From assembly GCF_020907245.1 (NCBI RefSeq), contig NZ_JAJJWH010000002.1:62001-126000 (forward strand): 64,000 nt of DNA, written 5' to 3'. Source of the DNA: Pontibacter harenae (GTDB taxonomy: Bacteria > Bacteroidota > Bacteroidia > Cytophagales > Hymenobacteraceae). Position 1 is the stretch's first letter. Each line of letters begins with the position of its first letter. Of this stretch, positions 3,441-18,958 are shown one piece after another. Both the position numbers and the translations under genes were made by a program. The notes beneath the pieces were generated by a model that saw only the letters and a list, made by a program, of their open reading frames with translations, was not told the origin of the DNA and did not search any database.

Positions 3441-3475
3441 AAAAAGCCTTACATCAAGTTATGATGCAAGGCTTT
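3441..3475 (-). terminator. Terminator of the speDE-ureohydrolase operon
   Basis: On the minus strand AAAGCCTT-GCATC pairs with GATGT-AAGGCTTTTT (AGCCTT/AAGGCT and CATC/GATG arms). A T run follows, about 25 bp beyond the stop codon of the ureohydrolase. Confidence 0.7.
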
Positions 3476-3496
3476 AGGTTAACAAAATGTTACGGA

Positions 3497-6359: not shown

Positions 6360-7634
6360 ATGGACTTCGCTAAAATATTTAATCATATTCCTGAAACTAT
6401 TGTAGTTCTCTCTCCAGACTATGTGGTACTTGCGGCCACAGCAGAATATTTACAGGCAACGTTACGAAGCCATGATGAGCTGATCGGGCAAAACTTCTTA
6501 CATGCTTTTCCTGATAACCCGAACAATACAGCCTCTAAAAACGAGAAACTACTGCGCACTTCGCTCGACAAGGTTCTGGAAACAAAAGAAGTTGATTACC
6601 TAGATGTGCTGAGGTACGATATTCCAAAACCTAAGGAACAGGGAGGCGGCTTCGACATTCGGTATTGGGAGGCTTCTCATACACCAGTGCTGAATGATGC
6701 GGGCGAGGTGATATATATTATACAAAGAACCATTGATGTAACAGAGCGAGAAATAGCAAAACTTGCCTTATCTGAAAGCGAAGACAAGTTCAGGTTTATG
6801 GCGGAAGCAATGCCTCAACTTATTTCTACAGCCAACGCTGCAGGCGACGCCACATACTTTAACCAACGCTGGACAGCATATACTGGTTTGCCAGTAAAAG
6901 AGTTGATAGACGCAGGCTTAAAAAAGGTAGCGCATCCAGAAGACCTTGAAATGTTGATGGACCGCTGGGCTTCTTCTTTTAAGAACAACACAGACTTTCA
7001 GGCAGAGATGCGGATACGGGCCAAAGATGGCAGTTACCGCTGGCATTTGCACCGAAGTGTGCCGATGCAGGATGAAAGCGGCAAAGTTATGATGTGGGTT
7101 GGCAGCGCTACCGATATACACGATACCAGGCAACTTGTGCAGGAACTGCTGCAGACGAATGAACAGATGTCTTCGCTATCTGACCAGGTGCAACATGCTT
7201 ATCAGAAAGCAGAAACAGAACGCCAGACGTTGGAACGGCTAATCATGACATCACCAATTTTCTTTTGCACCCTGAAAGGCAGGGACTATAGGTTTGAGCT
7301 GGTAAACGAAAAGTATCAGCAAATTTTTCCTGGCAGAGAGTTAGTAGGCAAAAGATTAACAGAGGCCATACCCGAAGTGAGAGAACAAGGGTTTCTGGAG
7401 CTATTGGACCAAGTTTACACCACAGGCAAAGAGCTGATAGCAGAAAATGTTTTATTTAGAGTAGACAAAACCAACACAGGGAATTTAGAGGATATTCATG
7501 TGACTTTTACTTACCAGCCCATGTATGATGCTGGTGAAATAACAGGCATATTGGTTTGTGGCTACGAAATGACAGAGGTTTTTAAGCTTAAGCAACAGCT
7601 ACAAGAACTAAATTATGGAACGCAGCAACAGTGA
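6360..7634 (+). CDS. PAS-domain sensor protein without an output domain
   Basis: A 424-residue soluble protein with three PAS domains: about 1-130 (PAS_4 type, with the LHAFPDNPNN signature common in Bacteroidota sensor kinases), about 140-260 (PAS_3 type, with YRWHLHRSVPMQDESGKV) and about 290-410 (PAS_4 type). A coiled-coil linker lies around 265-295. The chain stops just after the third PAS, where a HisKA domain would normally begin, so there is no kinase, GGDEF or HTH output. It is followed 34 bp later by a CZB-like gene and, convergently, by the chemosensory operon. It could be a stand-alone sensory adaptor or a relic of a hybrid kinase. The ligand is unknown. Confidence 0.85.
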   Translation: MDFAKIFNHIPETIVVLSPDYVVLAATAEYLQATLRSHDELIGQNFLHAFPDNPNNTASKNEKLLRTSLDKVLETKEVDYLDVLRYDIPKPKEQGGGFDIRYWEASHTPVLNDAGEVIYIIQRTIDVTEREIAKLALSESEDKFRFMAEAMPQLISTANAAGDATYFNQRWTAYTGLPVKELIDAGLKKVAHPEDLEMLMDRWASSFKNNTDFQAEMRIRAKDGSYRWHLHRSVPMQDESGKVMMWVGSATDIHDTRQLVQELLQTNEQMSSLSDQVQHAYQKAETERQTLERLIMTSPIFFCTLKGRDYRFELVNEKYQQIFPGRELVGKRLTEAIPEVREQGFLELLDQVYTTGKELIAENVLFRVDKTNTGNLEDIHVTFTYQPMYDAGEITGILVCGYEMTEVFKLKQQLQELNYGTQQQ

Positions 7635-8054: not shown

Positions 8055-8864
8055 CTACTTAAGTTCTCCTGCCACTATAGATTCAACTTTATACTCTTCC
8101 AACATATCTTCAAAAACATCGAAAGTATCTTGAAAGTAGCTAAATTCTGGTAGCAGGTTAAACAGCATTACGTGGTAGATCAGGAACAGCTCAGACTGCG
8201 TAAAGTTAGCTTTGGTTATAAAGCTGTAGTACTCGCCTTCATCTTCCGTTTCAGAGCGGTAACGCTGAATCAGCTTAAAGAGCACACTCAGGTTTTTGAG
8301 GTATGGGTTAAGGCTGGACTGGTAAAAGCTGAAATGGTAGGTAAAGTATTCTTTATATAGATTGTGCAGTGTTTCAGCATTCTTTTCCTGCGGAGTTAAG
8401 CTACGCACTTTCTGCACAAACGAGGTAAGCACTTTCTCCTGCAGAAAAACAAAGAAGTTTGTGCCCGACCACACGCTTTCATTTATATCGTAAGCGGTAA
8501 GGGAGTTGATGGCATCGTTGTGCTTATTGATAAAGCTGATGTAGAGGGTAGAAAAGTTTTGCTGCTGAAAAATCTTCTGGGTTTTATGCAGCTCGATGCG
8601 CTGAAGCTCAAATTCCCTTTTTTGGTAAGTAAGGGTGGCAAAGAAAAGAAAAACACCTGCCAGCGCCCAAAGCGATCCGACTATGCCTCCTACAAACTCT
8701 CCGAACTGCCCAAACACATCGCCTTTTCGCTCGGCTGGGTCCAGGTACAGTTCTCTTATCAAGTTAAATTTGACTGTGCCCCATACCAACACTAGTATTC
8801 CTGTTAGTATAAGTACGTAACCTGCAATTTCGTATCGGCTTAAGTTTGTTTTAGGCTTTAGCAT
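8055..8864 (-). CDS. Putative AbiC-type phage abortive infection membrane protein
   Basis: The 269-residue protein has two N-terminal transmembrane segments (about 12-30 and 55-77). A short coiled coil follows (QKREFELQRIELHKTQKIFQ), then a helical cytoplasmic domain. The segment FSTLYISFINKHNDAINSL resembles the F-x-L-L-x-x-H-N-x-I-x-x-I motif after the membrane helices in putative phage abortive infection proteins (PF16872). It starts 49 bp after cheC on the same strand and could be the last gene of the chemosensory transcript. No restriction enzyme, integrase or toxin gene is near. An immune role is a family-name inference only, and a membrane regulator is equally possible. Confidence 0.65.
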   Translation of the reverse strand: MLKPKTNLSRYEIAGYVLILTGILVLVWGTVKFNLIRELYLDPAERKGDVFGQFGEFVGGIVGSLWALAGVFLFFATLTYQKREFELQRIELHKTQKIFQQQNFSTLYISFINKHNDAINSLTAYDINESVWSGTNFFVFLQEKVLTSFVQKVRSLTPQEKNAETLHNLYKEYFTYHFSFYQSSLNPYLKNLSVLFKLIQRYRSETEDEGEYYSFITKANFTQSELFLIYHVMLFNLLPEFSYFQDTFDVFEDMLEEYKVESIVAGELK

Positions 8865-8913: not shown

Positions 8914-9588
8914 TCAATCGGTTTCCATCAAATTAGTATTTCCAAAATTGAATGTTCGGATGATGTCTAATATCTTCAGGAAAGTGTTTGTATCAAAGAA
9001 CAGCAGTAGCGGCAACTCTACGGTTTTGGTGTTATGGGTAAAGCGTGTGATAACTGTAAACACAAGCGGTTGAAAAAGCGGATGCTGTACCAGTATGTCT
9101 TTCAAGGAATCGGCTATATGACTTTTAGGAGCCTTAGGAGGCGACCCATAGATATTGGATTTCAGAATATTAGCAAGCTGCGTCACCAGAGCGCCTGTTA
9201 TGATATTGCTTATCTCTAGCAAAAGTGACTCCTGCATCGTGCTCAGTTCCCCTTTCTGCACATCAAGCATGGTTAGGCAAACTTCTGATAGCCTTACAAT
9301 GTGGTCGTCGGAGAAAAGCATGAGCGTGGCTCCGTTGAAGTCTCCTTTTATATCAGATTGAATGATGATATGGGTACTCTCGTAGCTAGCTACCAGGTGC
9401 AGCAACTCTTTAACCTCTATAAGCTTGATATCAGGCACTTTTAAAAGCACTTTATCTTTGGCTATAACCGCAAAGGAATCTGCAGCACGGGCTAAGCCAA
9501 TGTTCAGAATTTCTTTGATGATATCGCGCTCTAACTCCGTAATATGAGGTTCTGTCATAGTTCTCGTATTAGTAGTATTTTCGTCCAT
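8914..9588 (-). CDS. cheC: CheC-type CheY-phosphate phosphatase
   Basis: A member of the CheC/CheX/FliY phosphatases that dephosphorylate CheY-P. Both copies of the active-site pattern (D/S)-x3-E-x2-N are intact: DIIKEILN near residue 22 and SLLLEISN near residue 125. The 224-residue length is a little above B. subtilis CheC (about 209). The extra residues are an N-terminal leader rich in Thr and Asn; an internal Met11 (MTEPHITELE) could be the true start. It lies 9 bp after cheA. In Bacillus, CheC also binds CheD, but no cheD is present, so CheC here probably acts only as the signal-termination phosphatase for the neighbouring CheY. Confidence 0.9.
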   Translation of the reverse strand: MDENTTNTRTMTEPHITELERDIIKEILNIGLARAADSFAVIAKDKVLLKVPDIKLIEVKELLHLVASYESTHIIIQSDIKGDFNGATLMLFSDDHIVRLSEVCLTMLDVQKGELSTMQESLLLEISNIITGALVTQLANILKSNIYGSPPKAPKSHIADSLKDILVQHPLFQPLVFTVITRFTHNTKTVELPLLLFFDTNTFLKILDIIRTFNFGNTNLMETD

Positions 9589-9597
9589 CGCCGCATC

Positions 9598-11232
9598 CTA
9601 TCTTTTGTTTACATAAAAACGTGTAATGGCAGGCACATCTAAAACCAGGCATACTTTGCCTGTTCCCAGCAGCGTTACTCCGCCATATAGGTCTATTGTA
9701 TCTAACGGCTTTCGAAGTGGTTTAACCACAATATCCTGCTGTCTGTACAATTTATCTACAATCAAACCAAGCTTGCGGTTATTATAAGATACAATAATAA
9801 TGTTTTGCACCTGTCCTTTTAACCTTCTTTTATCGCCCAGCCTCATGTCTGAAGGGTCCGCATTCAAAAGCTCGTGCAGGTATACTACTGTCACGGTCTC
9901 TCCTAATATGTCGGTCACTAAAGCGCTTCCAACTTCATGTAGTTCATCTTTATCTAAAGACACCACCTGCTCGGTATGAATGAGCGGAATGGCGTAAAAT
10001 ATTTCATCAACCTCAAAAAGAAGCGCACCCTTAACAGCAATTGAGGTTGGTAGCCTCAACGTAAAAGTAGTGCCTTTCCCCTGTTTAGAATCTATGCTTA
10101 TCCGTCCTCCAATGGAGTCGATGGCATTTTTCACGACATCTAAGCCAACGCCTCTGCCAGAAAACTCTGTCACCTCTTTTGCGGTAGAAAATCCTGGCTC
10201 GAACAGCAGCGATAAAGCATCTACTTCAGACAGATCGTTGGCTACATCAGCAGTTACGAGTTGCCGCTCTATAGCCGTATTCTTTACCTGCTTCAGGTCA
10301 ATTCCTTTTCCATCGTCTGAAAATCTGATGAGCACATTCTCTCTATCATTCTGAGCTGTTAAAGACACCCGCCCCGCCCTAGGCTTTCCTTTTTTCTCCC
10401 GTTCTTCTGGCTTCTCCAAACCATGCGAAATGGCATTCCGCATTAGGTGCAGCAAAGAGTCTGTCATTATCTGCAGTATATTCCTGTCTATCTGAATATC
10501 CTGCCCTGCCAGTTCCAGGTCCACTTCCTTGTGTTCAGCGGCCGCAATGTCGCGCACAATACGCGGAAACTTGTTGAACAGCGTACCTATACTTACCAAA
10601 CGAGCATCCATCACGCTATACTGCAGGTCTTCTGTAATGCGGTACAGGTGTGAACTTACGTTCTGCAGTTCATCATTATTCAGCTCTCTGCTGATAGAGA
10701 TGATACGATCTCGATCTATCATCAACTCGCCCACCAGGTTCATCAGGTGGTCCAGCTTTTTTATCTGAATATAAATCAGGTCTGACAGCGATAAGTTTTT
10801 AGAAGTGTTATACTTCTGCACCTTCGCCAGTTCAATGGTGCTGTCAGAAAGATTATCTACTATAATATCGAGATTGCGCAGCAGCACAGGGTCTGCCTCC
10901 CCGTAATTTTCATTATCGATGTTATGAATCAGCTCGCCAAGCAAATCAATTCCATCGAAAAGCACTGTAACCACCTCATCGCTGAACGTGAGCTCTCTGT
11001 TCCGAATAAGGCTAAACGCCGTTTCCAGCTTATGAGACACATCAGAAATTTGCAGATAACCGATGGCTTTCGCATTTGCTTTCAGGTTATGCAGCAAACG
11101 GAAAACCTCCGCCAGAATCTGATCATCCTGTGGCTTGCGCTCCAGTTCACTTATGTGCCTGTTCAGGGCATCATAATATTCCAGCGCTTCCGCTACAAAT
11201 ATTTCTTTATATTCCTCTTCTCTCGATTTCAT
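9598..11232 (-). CDS. cheA: Chemotaxis histidine kinase CheA (compact, without P2)
   Basis: A CheA kinase of 544 residues. The N-terminal HPt (P1) carries the phosphorylatable His48 in LLHNLKANAKAIGY. A linker without a recognisable CheY-binding P2 domain follows. The P3 dimerisation helices contain the LDHLMNLVGEL motif, and the P4 HATPase has the N box (HLMRNAISHGLEK), G1 (DDGKGID) and G2 (GRGVGLD). The C-terminal P5 is a CheW-like domain. The shortness against E. coli CheA (654) is explained by the missing P2. Its start overlaps the cheB stop by four bases (ATGA), so the two are translationally coupled. It should form arrays with CheW and the poly-HAMP receptor and phosphorylate CheY and CheB. 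Confidence 0.96.
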   Translation of the reverse strand: MKSREEEYKEIFVAEALEYYDALNRHISELERKPQDDQILAEVFRLLHNLKANAKAIGYLQISDVSHKLETAFSLIRNRELTFSDEVVTVLFDGIDLLGELIHNIDNENYGEADPVLLRNLDIIVDNLSDSTIELAKVQKYNTSKNLSLSDLIYIQIKKLDHLMNLVGELMIDRDRIISISRELNNDELQNVSSHLYRITEDLQYSVMDARLVSIGTLFNKFPRIVRDIAAAEHKEVDLELAGQDIQIDRNILQIMTDSLLHLMRNAISHGLEKPEEREKKGKPRAGRVSLTAQNDRENVLIRFSDDGKGIDLKQVKNTAIERQLVTADVANDLSEVDALSLLFEPGFSTAKEVTEFSGRGVGLDVVKNAIDSIGGRISIDSKQGKGTTFTLRLPTSIAVKGALLFEVDEIFYAIPLIHTEQVVSLDKDELHEVGSALVTDILGETVTVVYLHELLNADPSDMRLGDKRRLKGQVQNIIIVSYNNRKLGLIVDKLYRQQDIVVKPLRKPLDTIDLYGGVTLLGTGKVCLVLDVPAITRFYVNKR

Positions 11233-12323
11233 GCAATACCGCCAGTTACACTGACCTGTTGCTGCTCTGCCACATAATTATTTATAAACACAGGTATCTG
11301 TGCCAATGGCAGCACTTGGTTAATACAACCGCTGTCTATTGCGGATTTAGCCATCCCGAAAATGGCTGATGTTGCTTCATCTTGTGCCAGCACAATTCCG
11401 TTTCTGCTCTTGATCAGGTTGGCTCCTAAGGTACCGTCTTTGCCCATACCCGTCAGGATAACGCCAACTATATTTTTTACAGTGCTTTTGGCAACCGAAG
11501 CCATTAAAGCATCTATCGAAGGCAAATCCAAAGGGCCTGTACCGTCCTCCGAAAAACAAACTTTCAGATTTGCGCTGTTCCCCATCACAGGTTGCACTTC
11601 CATTCTTCTTCCTCCTGGCGCAACTATAAGCTTTCCTGGTTTCAGCAACAGTCCGTCTTTTCCTTCCTCTACCGTAAGTGGTGTCAGTTCCTGCAGCCTT
11701 TTGGCAAACGATTTAGTGAACCGAGCTGGCAAATGCACTGCTAACAACACGCAAGCTTTTAAGTTTGGCGACAAACTGCGAACTATGGTTTCTATGGCCT
11801 GTGTTCCTCCCGTAGAGGCTCCGATCACAATTACAGTTTCTGCTGTTGCCAATGTTTTTTTTAGGTACTGATGCGCTTTTTTGTGCTCCATCTCCAGCGA
11901 TTGCGCCAGTAGCAGCATATCCCGCTTGTCCTGTTTATCAAAGGCTTTCACTTTCGCTACCAGTTCATCCTTCATGCCCCTAAAGCTTGGATACTTCTCA
12001 GACCCTTGTTTTATAATGATAGCATACACACCTAAAGCAACAGCTTCTTCAACCAGTTTAAAGGATAGTTGGCCATAGCTAAGAATTAAAATAACAGGTA
12101 CAGGCACTTCGCTAAAAATCCGTTTCAGTGCCAAAAGCCTGCTGTTTTGTGGCAGGTCGATATCTACTATTGCCAGATCAGCGTTTGTTTGCATTAACTG
12201 ATTTAGAAGCGAATCGCCATCAGCAGCCACTCCAACTACATCAACATCTTCTTCCTCGCCTAAAATATCCTGCAACACTATTCTTGTGTAGCTCGATTTA
12301 TCAGCGATTATTACCTTCGGCAT
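11229..12323 (-). CDS. cheB: Chemotaxis protein-glutamate methylesterase CheB
   Basis: An N-terminal receiver domain (about 1-120; acceptor Asp in LAIVDIDLP near residue 54) is joined to a methylesterase domain. The latter has the catalytic Ser in GASTGG, the His in AVHLPARF and the Asp in LTGMGKDG. It would remove methyl groups from, or deamidate, receptor glutamyl sites. The receiver is unusual: its first acidic pair is DKSS, so only one of the two canonical N-terminal Asp residues is kept, which may weaken Mg binding. No cheR methyltransferase lies in this operon. The last four bases overlap the start of cheA. Confidence 0.94.
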   Translation of the reverse strand: MPKVIIADKSSYTRIVLQDILGEEEDVDVVGVAADGDSLLNQLMQTNADLAIVDIDLPQNSRLLALKRIFSEVPVPVILILSYGQLSFKLVEEAVALGVYAIIIKQGSEKYPSFRGMKDELVAKVKAFDKQDKRDMLLLAQSLEMEHKKAHQYLKKTLATAETVIVIGASTGGTQAIETIVRSLSPNLKACVLLAVHLPARFTKSFAKRLQELTPLTVEEGKDGLLLKPGKLIVAPGGRRMEVQPVMGNSANLKVCFSEDGTGPLDLPSIDALMASVAKSTVKNIVGVILTGMGKDGTLGANLIKSRNGIVLAQDEATSAIFGMAKSAIDSGCINQVLPLAQIPVFINNYVAEQQQVSVTGGIA

Positions 12324-12380: not shown

Positions 12381-12755
12381 TTAAGCTTTCGTATCGTCCT
12401 GCAAGGCCTTACTAACTACCTCCAGCACCTTTTCCTCCGAAAAAGGCTTTACGATGTAAGCAAGAGCGCCATACTCTATTGCTTCATTTACTATCACCTC
12501 CTGGCCAACAGCGCTCACAATGATCACTTTCATGTCTGGCTGTTCGCTTTTTATACCTTTCAGTACATCAAGGCCTGTATTATCTGGCAAAATCACATCC
12601 AGCGTAACCAGATCTGGCTTAGTAGATTTTGCCAATTCAAGGGCTGTCTGCCCGTTTGGCGCCTCACCTACCACCTCGTACCCAGCGTCGGTAAGCATGT
12701 TCTTTAACATGGTGCGCATGTAGAAAGAATCATCTACAACTAAAATCCTTTTCAT
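12381..12755 (-). CDS. cheY: Single-domain response regulator CheY
   Basis: A stand-alone receiver of 124 residues with every phosphorylation residue: Asp8-Asp9 for Mg, phospho-acceptor Asp53 in VTLDVILP, the switch Ser in VSAVG and Lys102 in VKPF. It lies between cheW and cheB and is the expected target of CheA and of the CheC phosphatase. No flagellar switch exists in the window, so the output partner is unknown; it may be a gliding or type IV pilus component, or a non-motility pathway. Confidence 0.95.
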   Translation of the reverse strand: MKRILVVDDSFYMRTMLKNMLTDAGYEVVGEAPNGQTALELAKSTKPDLVTLDVILPDNTGLDVLKGIKSEQPDMKVIIVSAVGQEVIVNEAIEYGALAYIVKPFSEEKVLEVVSKALQDDTKA

Positions 12756-12787: not shown

Positions 12788-13381
12788 TTATCCTATCAAT
12801 TCATTTACTTCATCTTGTGTCAGCACCTTATACATGTCCAGCACAATGACCAAGCGGTTGTTTACTTTAGCAATACCCTCTATATAATTCTCCTGAATGT
12901 TAATGTCCTGAAGAAAAGAAGGCGTTTTATCTATTTTAGAGACAGGCAGGTTAATGGACTGCGGCATCTCCCGCACTATAATTCCTAAGTTATAGTCTTT
13001 CGCTTCTAATACTAAGGTATAGGTTACATTAGGATTATGCAGCCCCTGCTCTACAGGCGTAGGCTCTATGTTAAAACGCTGCTCCAGGTCCATCACCGCT
13101 ATAATATCGCCCCGTATGTTGGCCACACCTTTAATAAAATGAGGTGTGCGTGGCATACGGGTTATTGTAGGTGTTATGGTTACTTCTTTTACCAGCCCGA
13201 TTTTGATAGCATAATATTCACTACCCAACCTAAACATGATCAGGTGTACCATCTCCTCATTAGCTCCCCCCTTTGCTGGAACTGTTTCTACTGCCCGCGG
13301 TTCCTTTGTGTTTTGAGCAACTGCTTCTGCAACGGGCTCCTTCTCTCCAGAAACTTGCTTCTTCTCCTCTTTTTTCTCCAT
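12788..13381 (-). CDS. cheW: Chemotaxis adaptor CheW with charged N-terminal extension
   Basis: The C-terminal 150 residues form a CheW domain (HLIMFRLGSEYYAIKI, then IKGVANIRGDIIAVMDL, then EGIAKVNNRLVIVLDM) that couples receptor to CheA. The first 45 residues are an added low-complexity tail rich in Lys, Glu, Val and Ala. Typical CheW is about 160 residues, so the 197-residue length reflects that tail. The start is 2 bp beyond the stop of the MCP signalling-domain gene, which supports operon membership. Confidence 0.93.
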   Translation of the reverse strand: MEKKEEKKQVSGEKEPVAEAVAQNTKEPRAVETVPAKGGANEEMVHLIMFRLGSEYYAIKIGLVKEVTITPTITRMPRTPHFIKGVANIRGDIIAVMDLEQRFNIEPTPVEQGLHNPNVTYTLVLEAKDYNLGIIVREMPQSINLPVSKIDKTPSFLQDINIQENYIEGIAKVNNRLVIVLDMYKVLTQDEVNELIG

Positions 13382-13383
13382 GG

Positions 13384-14340
13384 CTATATCTGAGAGTCAC
13401 CTGTTTTAGCATTATTATTTCCCGTAGCTGACCTGTTGTTACCGACTGACTGCCGCAGCGGTTTGCGCGTAGTTGGTATCGAAGCCAATCGTCGGTTTTT
13501 AGAACTGTTCGTGAAAACAAGGTTGCCATCTATCAGCTTAAACGCCGATATACTAATTTGTAGGTCTGCCGCAATATCGTTCAGGTTCTGCGAAGAAGAT
13601 GTAAGCTCCTGCATGGAAGCCGATAGTTGCTTGGCTGTACTTGCCACTTGCTGTGTACCAGAGGCCGTTTGCTCGGCAATAGCCACTACTTCCTCCACAT
13701 ACTTCACAACGTCTCCGATAGATGACTTCTGCACCTCGGTTGCCGTTAAGATGTCTTGTGCCGTACGGAGTGTCTCACCGCTTCCTGCTGCAATATTTTT
13801 GAAGGCCCCAGATGCTTCGAAGGTTGCGTTTTTTCCTTTTAGTACACGGCCTTCCATGGTAGAAATCGCTGTAGCGGCAGAGGCTGTATCTTTCTTCACA
13901 TCATCTACCAGCGTGGCAATTTCACTTGCTGACTTACGCGAACCTTCAGCCAGTTTCCTAATTTCTTCAGCTACCACTGCAAAGCCTCTGCCTGCCTCGC
14001 CTGCACGGGCTGCTTCAATGGCTGCGTTCAAAGCAAGCAAGTTTGTTTGGGAGGCAATATCTGTGATGACACCAAGCGATTTGGAAATTTCTTGAGAGCG
14101 TGTGCTCAGTACTTCAATGGTTTTAGCTGTAAGGGCTGCTGAACTGGAAATTTCTTCCATGTTTCTCACCACTTCGGCCACAGTTTTCAGACCGTTCTGA
14201 GAGCTTTCCTCTCCTATTAAAGCCGCTTTGTTTACTACTTCCGCTCTGTTAGCGGTTTCTTTCGTGGCCTTCATAATCTCCTCGATCAGTTTGAAGGCCT
14301 GATCTGTTTTAAGCGCTTGATTTTGAGCACCTTCTGCCAT
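13384..14340 (-). CDS. MCP cytoplasmic signalling domain, separated from its poly-HAMP part by one stop codon
   Basis: The 318-residue protein is almost only a methyl-accepting chemotaxis signalling domain. The kinase-contacting hairpin tip [20 protein letters not shown], followed by [18 protein letters not shown], is intact (about residues 92-130). Long coiled coils flank it, and a basic, Ser/Asn-rich tail of about 50 residues ends it. There is no HAMP, sensor or membrane segment. Its ATG directly follows the TAG that ends the 1197-residue poly-HAMP ORF, in the same frame. The first residues ([14 protein letters not shown]) look like the middle of a receptor coiled coil, not a natural N-terminus. 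It is therefore probably the C-terminal part of one ancestral receptor of about 1516 codons, now either separately translated by stop-start coupling, reached by readthrough, or lost. Confidence 0.88.
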
Positions 14341-17300
14341 CTATTGCATAGCAAGGGCCACATCTAGCGTTACGGTGTTCATCTCCAATCCTTTATCAGC
14401 CATCTCTTCTGAAGAGCTTCCTACAATCAGGGAGGAGTCGTTTATTTCACCTAGCAGTGCGTTCAGGTTGTCCACTGCAAGATTCAAAGCATTCGCCATG
14501 TCCAGGATGTCACCTGCTGTTACGGTTTCTACTTTCTGCGTCAGGTCACCTTCTGAGATGGCACGCACTACGCGAGACACTTCCAGTACTGGTGTTACAA
14601 TAGATTCCAGCAGGTCGTTTACAGTATCTACCAGTTCTTTCCAGCTACCGCCTACACCTTGTAGTGTAGCACGCTCCGTTAGTTTACCTTCCACACCCGC
14701 TACTCTGGCCACACGGCTAACCTCACCAGCTAATCGGTTCAGGTCCACCACCATGGTGTTGATGGTTTCTGCCAACTCGGCCACTTCGCCTCTTGCATCC
14801 AGAGTCAGTTTCTGCGTCAGGTCACCTTTCGATACCGCTGTTACCACTTTCACGATGCCTCTTACCTGTGTGGTAAGATTTGTAGCCATGGTGTTTACAT
14901 TATCTGTCAGATCTTTCCAAACACCTGCCACATTCGGCACGTTGGCCTGTCCGCCTAGTTTACCCTCTGTACCCACCTCACGTGCCACACGCGTTACCTC
15001 ACCAGCAAATATATTGAGCGAGTCCACCATCTGGTTTAGGTTTCCTTTCAAGTCAGCTAGCTCGCCTTTTACATCTACCGATACTTTCTGCGTCAGGTCA
15101 CCTTTCGCTACAGCGGTTGCTACGTTGGCAATGTCCCGCACCTGTAGTGTCAGGTTGCTGGCCATTGTATTTACATTGTCGGTAAGTTCTTTCCAGGTAC
15201 CACGCACTTTCGGCACGTTGGCCTGTCCGCCTAGTTTACCCTCTGTACCCACCTCACGAGCCACACGGGTTACCTCGTCTGCAAATACGTTCAGCGAGTC
15301 CACCATCTGGTTCAAGTTTTCCTTTAGGTCGAGTATCTCACCACGTGCTTCAACAGATACTTTCTGCGTTAAGTCTCCTTTCGCAACCGCGGTAGCTACT
15401 TTGGCAATATCCCGTACCTGTGAGGTAAGGTTAGAAGCCATGGAGTTTACATTATCGGTTAGGTCCTTCCAAGTTCCAGCCACGTTTGGCACGTTGGCCT
15501 GACCGCCAAGCTTACCCTCTGTACCCACTTCACGGGCCACACGGGTTACCTCATCACCAAATATATTCAGCGAGTCCACCATGAAGTTGATGTTCTCTTT
15601 CAGTTCTGCAATCTCGCCACGGGCCTCCACTGTAATTTTCTGTGTCAGGTCACCTTTGGCAACACCAATAGCTACTTTAGCTATACCTCGCACCTGCGTT
15701 GTCAGGTTAGAAGCCATGGTGTTCACATTGTCAGTCAGGTCTTTCCAAACACCTGCTACATCTGGCACATTGGCCTGCCCACCTAGTTTACCCTCTGTAC
15801 CCACTTCACGTGCCACACGGGTTACCTCACCTGCAAAGATGTTCAGCGAGTCCACCATCTGGTTCAGGTTCTCTTTCAGCTCAGCCATCTCGCCCTTTAC
15901 ATCCACAGATACCTTCTGGCGCAGGTCACCCATGGCCACAGCAGTTGCTACGTTTGCTATATCACGCACCTGGCTGGTTAAGTTGGCAGCCATGGTGTTC
16001 ACGTTATCGGTCAGGTCTTTCCAAACTCCGCCCACATTCGGTACCGATGCCTGGCCACCCAGCCTACCTTCCGTACCCACCTCACGAGCCACACGCGTCA
16101 CTTCGTCTGCGAAGATGTTCAGTGAGTCAACCATCTGGTTCAGGTTTTCCTTTAGGTCCGCCAACTCACCTTTCACATTTACAGATACTTTCTGACTCAA
16201 ATCACCTTTCGCCACGGCAGTTGCTACATTGGCAATATCCCGTACCTGAGAGGTTAAGTTAGAAGCCATGTAGTTCACATTATCCGTCAGGTCTTTCCAT
16301 ACCCCTGCCACGTTTGGCACACTTGCCTGGCCACCTAATATACCCTCTGTCCCCACTTCACGTGCCACACGCGTTACTTCCGCGCCAAACACATTCAGTC
16401 GGTCCACCATTTCATTCAGGATATCTTTCAGTTCACCAAGTTCTCCTTTTACATCTACTGATACCTTCTGTGTCAAGTCACCTTTAGCCACGGCAGTTGC
16501 CACGTTGGCAATGTCTCGTACCTGCGAAGTCAGGTTGCTGGCCATCAGGTTCACATTATCGGTGAGTTCTTTCCAGGTACCTTCAACTCGTGGTACAGTG
16601 GCCTGACCACCCAGTTTACCTTCTGTCCCCACTTCACGTGCCACACGGGTTACCTCACCAGCGAAGATGTTCAAGGAATCCACCATCTGGTTGATGATGT
16701 CCTTCAACTCGGCCATCTCCCCTTTTACATTCACTGTTATTTTATGGGTCAGGTTACCTTTCGCCACCGCAGTAGACACATTAGCAATGTCTCGCATCTG
16801 CGCTGTCAGGTTGCTGGCCATGGTATTCACATTGTCGGTCAGGTCTTTCCAAACTCCGCCCACATTCGGTACTCGGGCCTGTCCGCCTAACTTACCCTCA
16901 GTTCCTACCTCACGTGCCACACGGGTTACCTCGTCTGCAAATATATTCAGCGAGTCCACCATTTGATTCATGTTATCCTTCAACTGTGCAAACTCACCAC
17001 GCACATCCACAGACACTTTCTGTGTCAGGTTACCCTTCGCCACAGCAGTTGCCACATTCGAAATGTCGCGCACTTGTGAGGTCAGGTTAGAAGCCATGGT
17101 GTTCACATTATCGGTTAGGTCTTTCCATACCCCCGCCACGTTTGGCACACTTGCCTGGCCACCTAGTTTACCCTCAGTACCTACCTCCAGGGCCACACGG
17201 GTTACCTCACCTGCAAACAGGTTCAGGTTATCGATGGTACGGTTTATTGTTTCCGCCATCACCTTAAAATCACCTGAAACTGGAATCTGAAATGTCTCAT

Positions 17301-17934
17301 CCAGGTTACCTCGGGAGATATTCTTAAGTACTTTCCCCACCTCCAGTACTGGCACCGCAATAGAATCTACCAGACCGTTGATGTTGTTGATCATGTCCTT
17401 CCAGAAACCAGAGGCATTTTCAGCAGAGGCACGGGCCTTTAGGTTACCTTCCACACCGGCCACCTTCGAAATCCTGGACACCTCACCACCTACACCACCG
17501 ATCATCTCCACCATGGAGTTATAAGCTTCGGCTATTTCAGCGAATATATCGCTGTTCTGCTTTGTCAGTCGAACAGAAATATCTCCCTTTTTAAAAGCAT
17601 CAAGGGCATACAGCACCTTGTTTAGCTGCTCGTTTAGGTATTCTGGGCTAGTAGGCAGCGCCTGTTTCTCCTGCTCAGGTGTGTCTGTATCGTTTTCACT
17701 ATCTGTTACAGTAGGACTGTCCACCTCTTCTTTGGCCTGAGCAGTAATCTCATCCCTCAAAGTATTTTTGGGTGCATCTGGTGTTTCTTCCGTCGATGGC
17801 TTATTTGGAGGAGTAGTTGCAGTAGCTGGCTTGCTTTCCGCTTTGGCTTTTGGTGCAGGCTTTTTCTCTTGATTGGCTTCCACGTCACTAATGAGCTTTT
17901 CTTTGCTCAACTTCAAGTTTTTACCTAAGGCCAT
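14341..17934 (-). CDS. Poly-HAMP chemoreceptor, soluble, about 23 HAMP-like modules
   Basis: A 1197-residue protein without signal peptide or membrane helix. Residues 1-40 are a Lys/Ala/Pro-rich tail and 41-95 an acidic disordered segment. From about residue 105 to 1165 there is an uninterrupted chain of alternating canonical HAMPs (12 copies of a GD/GN-containing motif such as AKGDLTQKV) and divergent HAMPs (11 copies of an EG-x-L motif such as GTEGKLGG). Residues 269-1096 are nine repeats of exactly 92 residues, each a HAMP pair, starting at [10 protein letters not shown]. Similar 92-residue HAMP pairs occur in fungal Nik1-type kinases. After a last HAMP pair the chain enters a coiled coil and stops at TAG (14343-14341), immediately followed in frame by the MCP signalling domain. 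It should transmit signals to CheA-CheW in the cytoplasm. The input is unknown. Confidence 0.93.
14647..17130 (-). repeat. Nine tandem 276-bp coding repeats (92-residue HAMP pairs)
   Basis: Residues 269-1096 of the poly-HAMP protein divide into nine units, each exactly 92 residues (276 bp), with no indel between units. Protein identity between units is very high (for example [28 protein letters not shown]). Synonymous and a few conservative changes distinguish the units, so they are not very recent duplicates. The equal spacing in every unit shows that phase matters. Confidence 0.95.
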
Positions 17935-18083: not shown

Positions 18084-18833
18084 TTAGTGCGCATTCAGAA
18101 ATTCTTTCCCGAGCGCCATGTAATCTTTGGCTCCATTAGAAGACGCATCGTAGTTAATAACGCTTTTCCCAAAAGAGGGCGCCTCTGCAAGTTTAACATT
18201 AAGACGGATGTGGCTATCGAAGATTTTTTCTTTCACGTTTTCGCGCAGATATTCCAATACCTCCTGGCTTAGTTTTCTCCTGATATCAAACATCACCACT
18301 ACGATTCCCTTTATCTTAAGTTTCGGGTTAAACGCCTTTTTTACTTTGTTAACCGTATTCATAATCTGGTCGAGGCCCTGCAGGGTCAACACTTCCATCT
18401 GAAGCGGTATCAGCACCTCCTGGGCAGCCGTAAGCGCGTTCAGCGTCAGCACCGACAGCGAAGGCGGACAGTCAATCAACACATAGTCAAAGCCTTTTAC
18501 ATCGGCCAGCATGTTTTTAAGAAATTTCTCTCTTTCTGGCTGAGACACCAGCGATATTTCTATATCAACTAAATCATTGGAGCCTGGTGCAATCCACAGT
18601 CCGTCTTTCTCAACAAGAATGTCTTTGAGTGATTGATTTCCGAGGAAAACATCGGCCAGTGTGGCCTCTGGGGCCGTTACAGCCAAAGAATAAGACAGGT
18701 TGCTTTGTGGGTCCAGGTCCAGGAGCAGCACTTTTTTGCCTTCTTTAGCCAGGGCGCTGCCAAGGTTAATGGTGGTAGTGGTTTTACCCGTACCGCCCTT
18801 TTGATTGATAACAGCTACAATAGTCGATTTCAT
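18084..18833 (-). CDS. ParA/MinD-family ATPase, likely positioning factor of the chemosensory array
   Basis: A ParA-type ATPase of 249 residues from the start MKSTIVAVI (an upstream Met at 18857 is less likely, as it adds an unconserved leader). The deviant Walker A motif QKGGTGKTTT is at the N-terminus, Walker A' is VLLLDLDPQSNLS, and Walker B lies in YVLIDCPPSLSVLT. No parB or parS is present. It is the first gene before the receptor, cheW, cheY, cheB, cheA and cheC on the same strand. Orphan ParA homologues inside che operons (PpfA of Rhodobacter sphaeroides, ParC of Vibrio) position and segregate chemosensory clusters, so the same role is inferred. A chromosomal Soj-type ParA is the alternative. 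Confidence 0.88.
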   Translation of the reverse strand: MKSTIVAVINQKGGTGKTTTTINLGSALAKEGKKVLLLDLDPQSNLSYSLAVTAPEATLADVFLGNQSLKDILVEKDGLWIAPGSNDLVDIEISLVSQPEREKFLKNMLADVKGFDYVLIDCPPSLSVLTLNALTAAQEVLIPLQMEVLTLQGLDQIMNTVNKVKKAFNPKLKIKGIVVVMFDIRRKLSQEVLEYLRENVKEKIFDSHIRLNVKLAEAPSFGKSVINYDASSNGAKDYMALGKEFLNAH

Positions 18834-18958
18834 AGAGAGATTTGAAGTAAAAACCACAAAAGAAAGGCTACATGCGCTTGTGTGGCGTCTAAATATAGGG
18901 AATCTATTGTTAAAACAGAAAGACTACGCACACGACAACACCCTAAAAGCTGCTTTCG

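Follow-up and report, generated by a model that had tools for sequence, protein, structure and literature searches.

We examined a stretch of 64,000 nucleotides from the genome of Pontibacter harenae (contig NZ_JAJJWH010000002.1, positions 62,001 to 126,000; hereafter the window) and found that it codes for a soluble chemoreceptor in which a ladder of 23 HAMP modules, by its place in the domain order, occupies the sensor slot that arrays of PAS domains fill in related receptors, ahead of a methyl-accepting chemotaxis protein (MCP) signalling domain. This gene specifies the sole chemoreceptor of the Hymenobacteraceae, and a cytoplasmic one. The architecture is real and conserved; the window's own copy is broken or mis-sequenced, with an in-frame amber codon between the ladder and the signalling half. 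What is novel, so far as sequence can tell, is the combination of a HAMP ladder of the Nik1 type, an MCP output and a ParA-dependent positioning like that of TlpT, the last of which we infer.

The MCP half was present in all 150 family genomes searched, with up to 15 candidates scored per genome, and occurred once in each of the 149 relatives. Likewise, exactly one PF00015 domain was detected in 80/80 family genomes scanned. The 80 named relatives come from Pontibacter, Rufibacter, Adhaeribacter, Hymenobacter and neighbouring genera, which we take to belong together in the family Hymenobacteraceae; the window genome had a single PF00015 match, the MCP half itself. Outside the family, ladders are rare: at E ≤ 1e-30 they were recovered from 10 of 296 Bacteroidota genomes, 7 of them non-family. 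Six of the seven non-family loci were counted, giving 19, 21, 25, 25 and 25 modules and, in the sixth, 20 modules with one gap of 92, and all four that were scanned against Pfam code for kinases with GAF, HisKA, HATPase and receiver domains. Among the available papers, searched by title and the openings of abstracts for methyl-accepting chemotaxis in the Hymenobacteraceae and, separately, for poly-HAMP proteins, no description of this receptor came up; C. hutchinsonii, Frz and other systems were outside that search.

The HAMP ladder and its variation across the family

The ladder is encoded by an open reading frame (ORF) of 1197 residues on the minus strand (14341-17934). It spans residues 96-1153 (14476..17649, minus strand) and consists of 23 modules of 46 residues each, in which canonical (C) and divergent (d) versions alternate from end to end (C d C d ... 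C), as recognized from their glycine register and from profile matches. The glycines fall at residues 117+92k in 12 canonical modules and at 163+92k in 11 divergent ones, with zero exceptions, and the 46/92-residue register holds throughout the 1058 residues of the ladder. An earlier reading of the window from its letters and translations (the sequence-only reading) had put the chain at about 1060 residues, with the same numbers of canonical and divergent modules and an exact 92-residue pair in nine consecutive units. The glycine register bears out the count exactly, and the exact pair extends further than had been supposed, to 11/11 pairs plus one last canonical module. In the DNA, the repeat appears as nine copies of 300 nucleotides spaced exactly 276 nucleotides apart, eight of them being 66-75% identical to the reference copy.

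All 12 canonical modules matched the Pfam HAMP family PF00672 (E ≤ 0.01). When the divergent modules were taken singly at the same threshold, a match was found for only 1 of the 11 (HAMP_2, E 0.005; PF00672 and PF18947 were the families considered). A profile built from the 11 divergent modules nevertheless matched 9trk, a solved poly-HAMP histidine kinase construct in the PDB, with E 5e-60. The whole ladder ORF matched 9trk with E 8e-82 and the Aer2 structure 3vol with E 1e-5, in agreement with the Nik1- and Aer2-like character proposed for the modules earlier; by these matches, they are of the type found in Nik1-type kinases. The proposed solubility and lack of known sensors also held up: the top 19-residue Kyte-Doolittle mean of the ladder ORF is 1.35, at which a membrane helix is not expected, and its Pfam scan (E ≤ 0.01) returned no PAS, GAF or Cache domain. 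The same ORF contains no cysteine. A HisKA, HATPase or receiver output was not found in the Pfam scan of the ladder and MCP ORFs, the MCP domain being the only output.

Several further Pfam families (SpoIIID, HTH_6, ATG17, Nup49, Prominin and others) scored inside the ladder and were treated as cross-matches; SpoIIID (in the window and in the kinase loci L288-L290) and HTH_6 (in the window) do so within HAMP pairs. For the poly-HAMP region of the Myxococcus proteins AskA/AskB, SpoIIID-like and HTH_6 matches have been reported as putative DNA-binding domains (PMC7643160); these may be HAMP cross-matches too.

The ladder is under strong constraint, with proportions of nonsynonymous and synonymous differences (pN and pS) of 0.04-0.06 and 0.60-0.63, respectively, between the window's ladder and those of four relatives. 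Its best-conserved stretch in the family, by pairwise identity, is formed by modules 2-4 (17098..17511, minus strand), for which the mean pairwise identities among 19 family members are 0.94, 0.96 and 0.90, compared to 0.86 for module 1, 0.76-0.87 for modules 5-14 and 0.81-0.88 for the last four.

From 196 family loci we obtained 123 distinct ladders, of which 112 were complete; the remaining 11 were dropped on account of contig ends, N in L048 or, in the case of L111 from a metagenome-assembled genome, a frameshift. Module numbers in the complete ladders are 15 (in 2 ladders), 17 (16), 19 (2), 21 (38), 23 (29), 25 (6), 27 (5), 29 (12) and 31 (2). All 112 have an odd count, strict alternation and a canonical module at both ends, and the module spacing is 46 throughout the family ladders with one exception, 43 in L129. 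L165 and L167 were counted as 17, the 18th match being spurious (2.6-2.9 bits and past the last HAMP; the sole two below 10 bits); the last matches in L248 and L249 (about 11 bits) also lie past the last HAMP.

Among the 29 Pontibacter ladders of 11 pairs, including that of the window, the best DNA match of a unit was the unit at the same position in 7485/8932 comparisons. Units 0, 1, 4 and 10 kept their position in 812/812 comparisons each, and unit 6 did so least (312/812). Identical units occur within single ladders in L146 (units 7 and 9) and L162 (units 2 and 3). Since inner units exchange and identical units occur within ladders, the ladders appear to gain and lose whole 276-nucleotide pairs through exchange among their inner units. 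We put at even odds the possibility that length and odd parity have no functional meaning and are the neutral outcome of unequal crossing-over among these units between fixed ends. The near-identical units within one ladder, which show ongoing exchange, and the steadiness of units 0, 1, 4 and 10 beside the mobility of unit 6 are what such a process would leave behind; moreover, canonical and divergent modules seem too unlike to recombine, which would make steps of one module improbable. Against neutrality, the Nik1-type kinases share the alternation, and their counts are odd in 5/6 loci, and in the sixth as well if a missed module is filled in by the spacing; CaNik1p, too, has an odd number of HAMPs, nine (PMC3848655). 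Pair-wise exchange alone can explain the odd parity, though the Nik1-type kinases share it.

The amber stop in the window copy

In the window, an in-frame amber codon, TAG (14341..14343, minus strand), lies between the ladder and the signalling domain. The MCP signalling half of 318 residues (13384..14340, minus strand; PF00015 over residues 40-219, E 3e-40) begins in frame with an ATG directly after the TAG, and this ATG corresponds to a conserved Met in the protein of the uncut relatives. The joined frame of ladder and MCP half comprises 1516 sense codons and one TAG. The sequence-only reading had the chain feeding an MCP domain. This is right as to the output for which the gene is built, but the ORF 14341-17934, cut off by the amber codon, does not itself contain that domain.

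The stop position is a sense codon in 36/36 same-genus relatives, and the whole frame is unbroken in 33 of them; L051 and L058 are cut by contig ends, and L048 has an assembly problem with N. Ladder and MCP half lie in one frame in 112 complete family relatives. The split is private to the Pontibacter harenae genome among the same-genus relatives. The MCP half of the window, compared with six relatives, has pN of 0.020-0.034 and pS of 0.65-0.77. A reassigned TAG was considered and rejected, as TAG terminates both cheA and a phosphatase gene in the same locus.

Because both halves look constrained and a sense codon is present in all 36 relatives, we take the stop to be an error in the sequence or else a loss-of-function mutation of recent date. 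An error of sequencing or assembly, with the protein in truth running uncut through 1516 residues like its relatives, comes a little short of an even chance. Apart from the sense codon of the relatives and the constraint on both halves, it is favoured by the intact adjoining che and parA genes and by the state of the assembly (G000), a draft of 112 contigs that is 87.65% complete. On the other side, a single base change is in our judgement atypical of assembly errors, another stop-interrupted copy (in G270) sits on a 5.1-Mb contig, and the MCP half of the window differs from its relatives a little more than three pairs of relatives differ from each other (pN 0.013-0.018).

That second broken poly-HAMP MCP, L248 of G270, comes from outside the family; it has an in-frame TGA within its ladder (at about 3475-3485, minus strand) and an MCP half with 77% identity. 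The metagenomic copy L111 is likewise interrupted, in its case by the frameshift.

The sensor slot and the N-terminal peptide

Other MCPs of the same order share with the ladder receptors an N-terminal motif (MALG.N, the hook), an adjacent parA gene, a terminal HAMP pair and the MCP half; where the ladder would stand, they have 2-13 PAS domains. In 6/6 motif-bearing order relatives that were scanned (L085, L086, L259, L274, L280 and L285), PAS domains lie between the hook and the HAMP pair, numbering 2, 3, 3-4, 4, 6 and 13. These PAS-array receptors end in a divergent-canonical HAMP pair followed by the MCP half, like the ladder receptors. The largest array is that of L259, in which 13 PAS domains precede the MCP domain and which also has the motif and an adjacent parA; the receptor frames of L259, L263, L264, L267, L268 and L271 are 2084-2131 residues long. 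In a tree with a midpoint root, which calls for caution over long branches, the poly-HAMP receptors fall into a single group, set on a long branch, and for this reason a single exchange between PAS array and ladder suffices.

Among the closest counterparts of the ladder are the Nik1-type group III hybrid histidine kinases. CaNik1p is, like the ladder receptor, soluble, and has four 92-residue HAMP pairs and a final single HAMP, nine HAMPs as against 15-31 in the family receptors; when all its HAMPs are deleted it is active without a stimulus, and HAMP pairs decide the state of the kinase (PMC3848655). Bacterial poly-HAMP kinases (Myxococcus AskA/AskB; L288-L290 and L292) belong beside them, and the kinase loci analysed alternate canonical and divergent modules as the receptor does. 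They differ in their output, GAF-HisKA-HATPase-receiver in the four scanned as opposed to MCP, and in showing one 51-residue spacing within the ladder (two in L293), where the window copy keeps to 46 throughout. The Aer2-type receptors of Pseudomonas and Vibrio are likewise soluble MCPs with HAMP stacks (PMC7184735, PMC3570549), but combine PAS sensors with two to five HAMPs (PMC7184735), in contrast to the 23 HAMPs and lack of a PAS match in the window receptor.

Given that PAS arrays share its slot in the relatives and that HAMP pairs set the kinase state in Nik1, the ladder is by analogy the likeliest input site. We offer only tentatively the fuller version of this idea, in which the HAMP ladder itself would be the sensor and the only input of the only array, its always-odd 15-31 modules would give it like ends, and a ParA motor would carry the array in part of the family. 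The sequence-only reading had suggested that an extended rod of this kind might sense osmotic or crowding changes, or serve as a scaffold or spacer. The ladder might indeed be a rigid spacer that sets the distance from the N-terminus to the CheA/CheW base plate, with signals entering elsewhere, e.g., by methylation or through partner proteins. A module number that runs from 15 to 31 within one family is easier to square with a spacer than with a tuned sensor, and the exchange and duplication of inner units, with the identical pairs in L146 and L162, points the same way. Yet the low pN of the ladder relative to its pS, the strict alternation of two module types, the near invariance of modules 2-4 and the sensor domains that relatives have in the same slot make us doubt it. 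With length varying twofold, we still give a pure spacer role a chance, though one well below even.

Ahead of the ladder, residues 1-15 (17890..17934, minus strand) form a basic peptide in which 11/15 columns are invariant across 29 aligned family members, and which, being conserved and co-occurring with parA, is a candidate ParA-activating hook. The tail that follows (residues 16-95; 17650..17889, minus strand) is variable and rich in Ala, Pro, Thr and Glu; it is unconserved in the same alignment and predicted to be disordered, the predicted local distance difference test score (pLDDT) being below 50 for residues 17-91. Residues 1-95 are net acidic overall (14 K+R versus 19 D+E). MALGKN is present in 67/67 complete family receptors with parA directly upstream and in 0/45 without it, absence here meaning none within 2.8-6.6 kb upstream.

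At the level of the order, 48 ORFs were collected and 3 with a cut N-terminus set aside, leaving 45 receptors from outside the family. Both the motif MALG.N and an adjacent parA were found in 13, the motif alone in 4, neither in 28 and parA alone in 0 (Fisher p 3e-8, without correction for kinship). Five rows are doubtful: four of these ORFs, from L286 and L287, have hydrophobic N-termini, and the fifth is the interrupted L248, in which the piece upstream has no motif either. Without them, the table reads 13 both, 4 motif alone, 0 parA alone and 23 neither. In three of the four motif-alone genomes there is an unlinked second ParA (47-50% identity) besides the chromosomal-looking type. Seven genomes with the Hymenobacter type of receptor, each in 1-2 contigs, have only a chromosomal-looking ParA of 38-39% and none above 39%.

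Proteins that activate ParA/MinD ATPases commonly use short, positively charged N-terminal extensions, and TlpT of Rhodobacter sphaeroides has one (PMC7993993). TlpT is a soluble receptor with the gene for a ParA homologue, PpfA, alongside; PpfA positions it (PMC3964821), and the N-terminus of TlpT is thought to stimulate this homologue (PMC3964821, PMC7993993). At the level of the genes, the window receptor has the features of this type: no membrane helix, an adjacent parA and a conserved basic N-terminus that co-occurs with it. By this analogy we infer that the hook is a TlpT/PpfA-like ParA-activating peptide. TlpT, for its part, has 567 residues and no ladder, and the description given is that of a classical MCP coiled coil (PMC3964821). 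It seems unlikely that the tail binds DNA directly and that the receptor has nothing to do with the parA beside it. The precedent for such binding is FrzCD of Myxococcus xanthus, likewise soluble, with a basic N-terminus and a di-HAMP region between tail and signalling domain (PMC5716589, PMC12077210); FrzCD binds DNA directly and has two HAMPs rather than 23 (PMC5716589). In our receptors, the motif and parA are present together in 67/67 and missing together in 45/45, and the conserved, basic part is confined to residues 1-15 of a tail that is net acidic overall, both of which speak against direct DNA binding.

The chemosensory operon and the proposed array

The receptor gene stands in an operon on the minus strand with the order ParA-MCP-CheW-CheY-CheB-CheA-CheC, which is conserved in the genus. 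The parA-like gene (18084..18857) codes for 257 residues as called, with a further in-frame ATG at 18833; it has a deviant Walker A motif (KGGTGKT) and matches AAA_31 (E 5e-54) and CbiA/ParA-type families. Downstream of the receptor lie cheW (12788..13381; PF01584, E 4e-29), a cheY-like response regulator gene (12381..12755; PF00072, E 6e-30), cheB (11229..12323; PF01339, E 3e-53, and PF00072, E 3.5e-11), cheA (9598..11232; Hpt, H-kinase_dim, HATPase_c and CheW domains) and a cheC/cheX-like gene (8914..9588; PF04509, E 1e-11). In Pontibacter, cheW, cheY, cheA and cheC are found beside the MCP gene in 36/36 loci. An adjacent parA is present in 34/36, the other two (L051 and L058) being those cut by contig ends, and a full-length cheB match in 30/36 (not in L048, L056, L059, L064, L077 and L080). 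The scan of the operon genes turned up no cheR; the genome's one CheR match is on another contig.

Directly after cheC follows a putAbiC-like gene (8055-8864, minus strand), which was matched near the operon in 14/80 named relatives. A gene in which Pfam detects PAS domains only (6360-7634, plus strand) lies beside the operon; it was considered as a missing sensor partner and rejected, with a match near 2/80 named loci (42% over 122 residues).

We propose, with a probability of roughly 0.6, that the locus encodes the cell's single cytoplasmic chemosensory array. The basic N-terminal peptide would dock on, and probably stimulate, the ParA ATPase encoded next door, so that the array might ride on the nucleoid and be shared out at division. 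Next would come a flexible, disordered tail. The 23-module ladder, replacing a PAS array, would most likely itself hold and switch the signalling state upon an intracellular condition, as in Nik1-type kinases, and the MCP domain would control CheA through CheW.

Several observations weigh against this model. Receptors without hook and parA look like one clade, the Hymenobacter type, and within the family the association between hook and parA is in effect one co-loss. This type has kept the ladder without either partner, and the ladder can therefore do its work, whatever that is, without the hook. Corrected for kinship on the tree, the data leave 6 supported independent contrasts, so that the test is underpowered; 4-5 of them agree, none opposes and in the other 1-2 the two sides do not differ (p 0.0625-0.125 by a sign test). 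In the fourth motif-alone genome, G384, the best ParA (42%) is not separable from the chromosomal type. The basic N-terminal tail of FrzCD binds the nucleoid (PMC5716589), an example of a basic tail that itself binds DNA. The case for sensing by the ladder is one of position and of analogy with Nik1 only; a thiol mechanism like that of Drk1 (PMC6433957) is inapplicable as such because the window protein has no Cys, and a midpoint-rooted tree with a long branch allows either direction for the exchange between PAS array and ladder. Confidence was low in both AlphaFold2 predictions (mean pLDDT 44.6 and 52.8), too low to add to the picture; inner helices of 30-31 residues and connectors of 14-17 residues were predicted, as stacked HAMPs would show, at a mean pLDDT of only 44.6.

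In the window copy, the amber stop would cut the proposed receptor between its ladder and its MCP domain, and the ATG directly after it could still yield a free MCP fragment. That the split is in use, with readthrough of UAG or re-initiation supplying the ladder and a free MCP domain as cooperating proteins, is improbable in spite of this well-placed ATG and of the strong constraint on both halves. The stop is private to one genome, the ATG simply encodes a Met that is conserved where the protein is uncut, and both cheA and the phosphatase gene end in TAG in the ordinary way, which leaves no room for recoding.

If the ladder senses, HAMP, usually a relay, would be a sensor of cytoplasmic state in bacteria, as has been suggested for fungal Nik1; what poly-HAMP regions do is described as an open question also for the fungal kinases that several fungicides rely on (PMC3848655). 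More than 100 orthologues, whose ladders run from 15 to 31 modules and which may or may not have the hook, and the PAS-array relatives that share the output half make up a natural comparison set, in which the exchange of blocks could tell sensing, relaying and spacing apart and show whether parity matters. An entire bacterial family has one chemoreceptor only, and that one is cytoplasmic.

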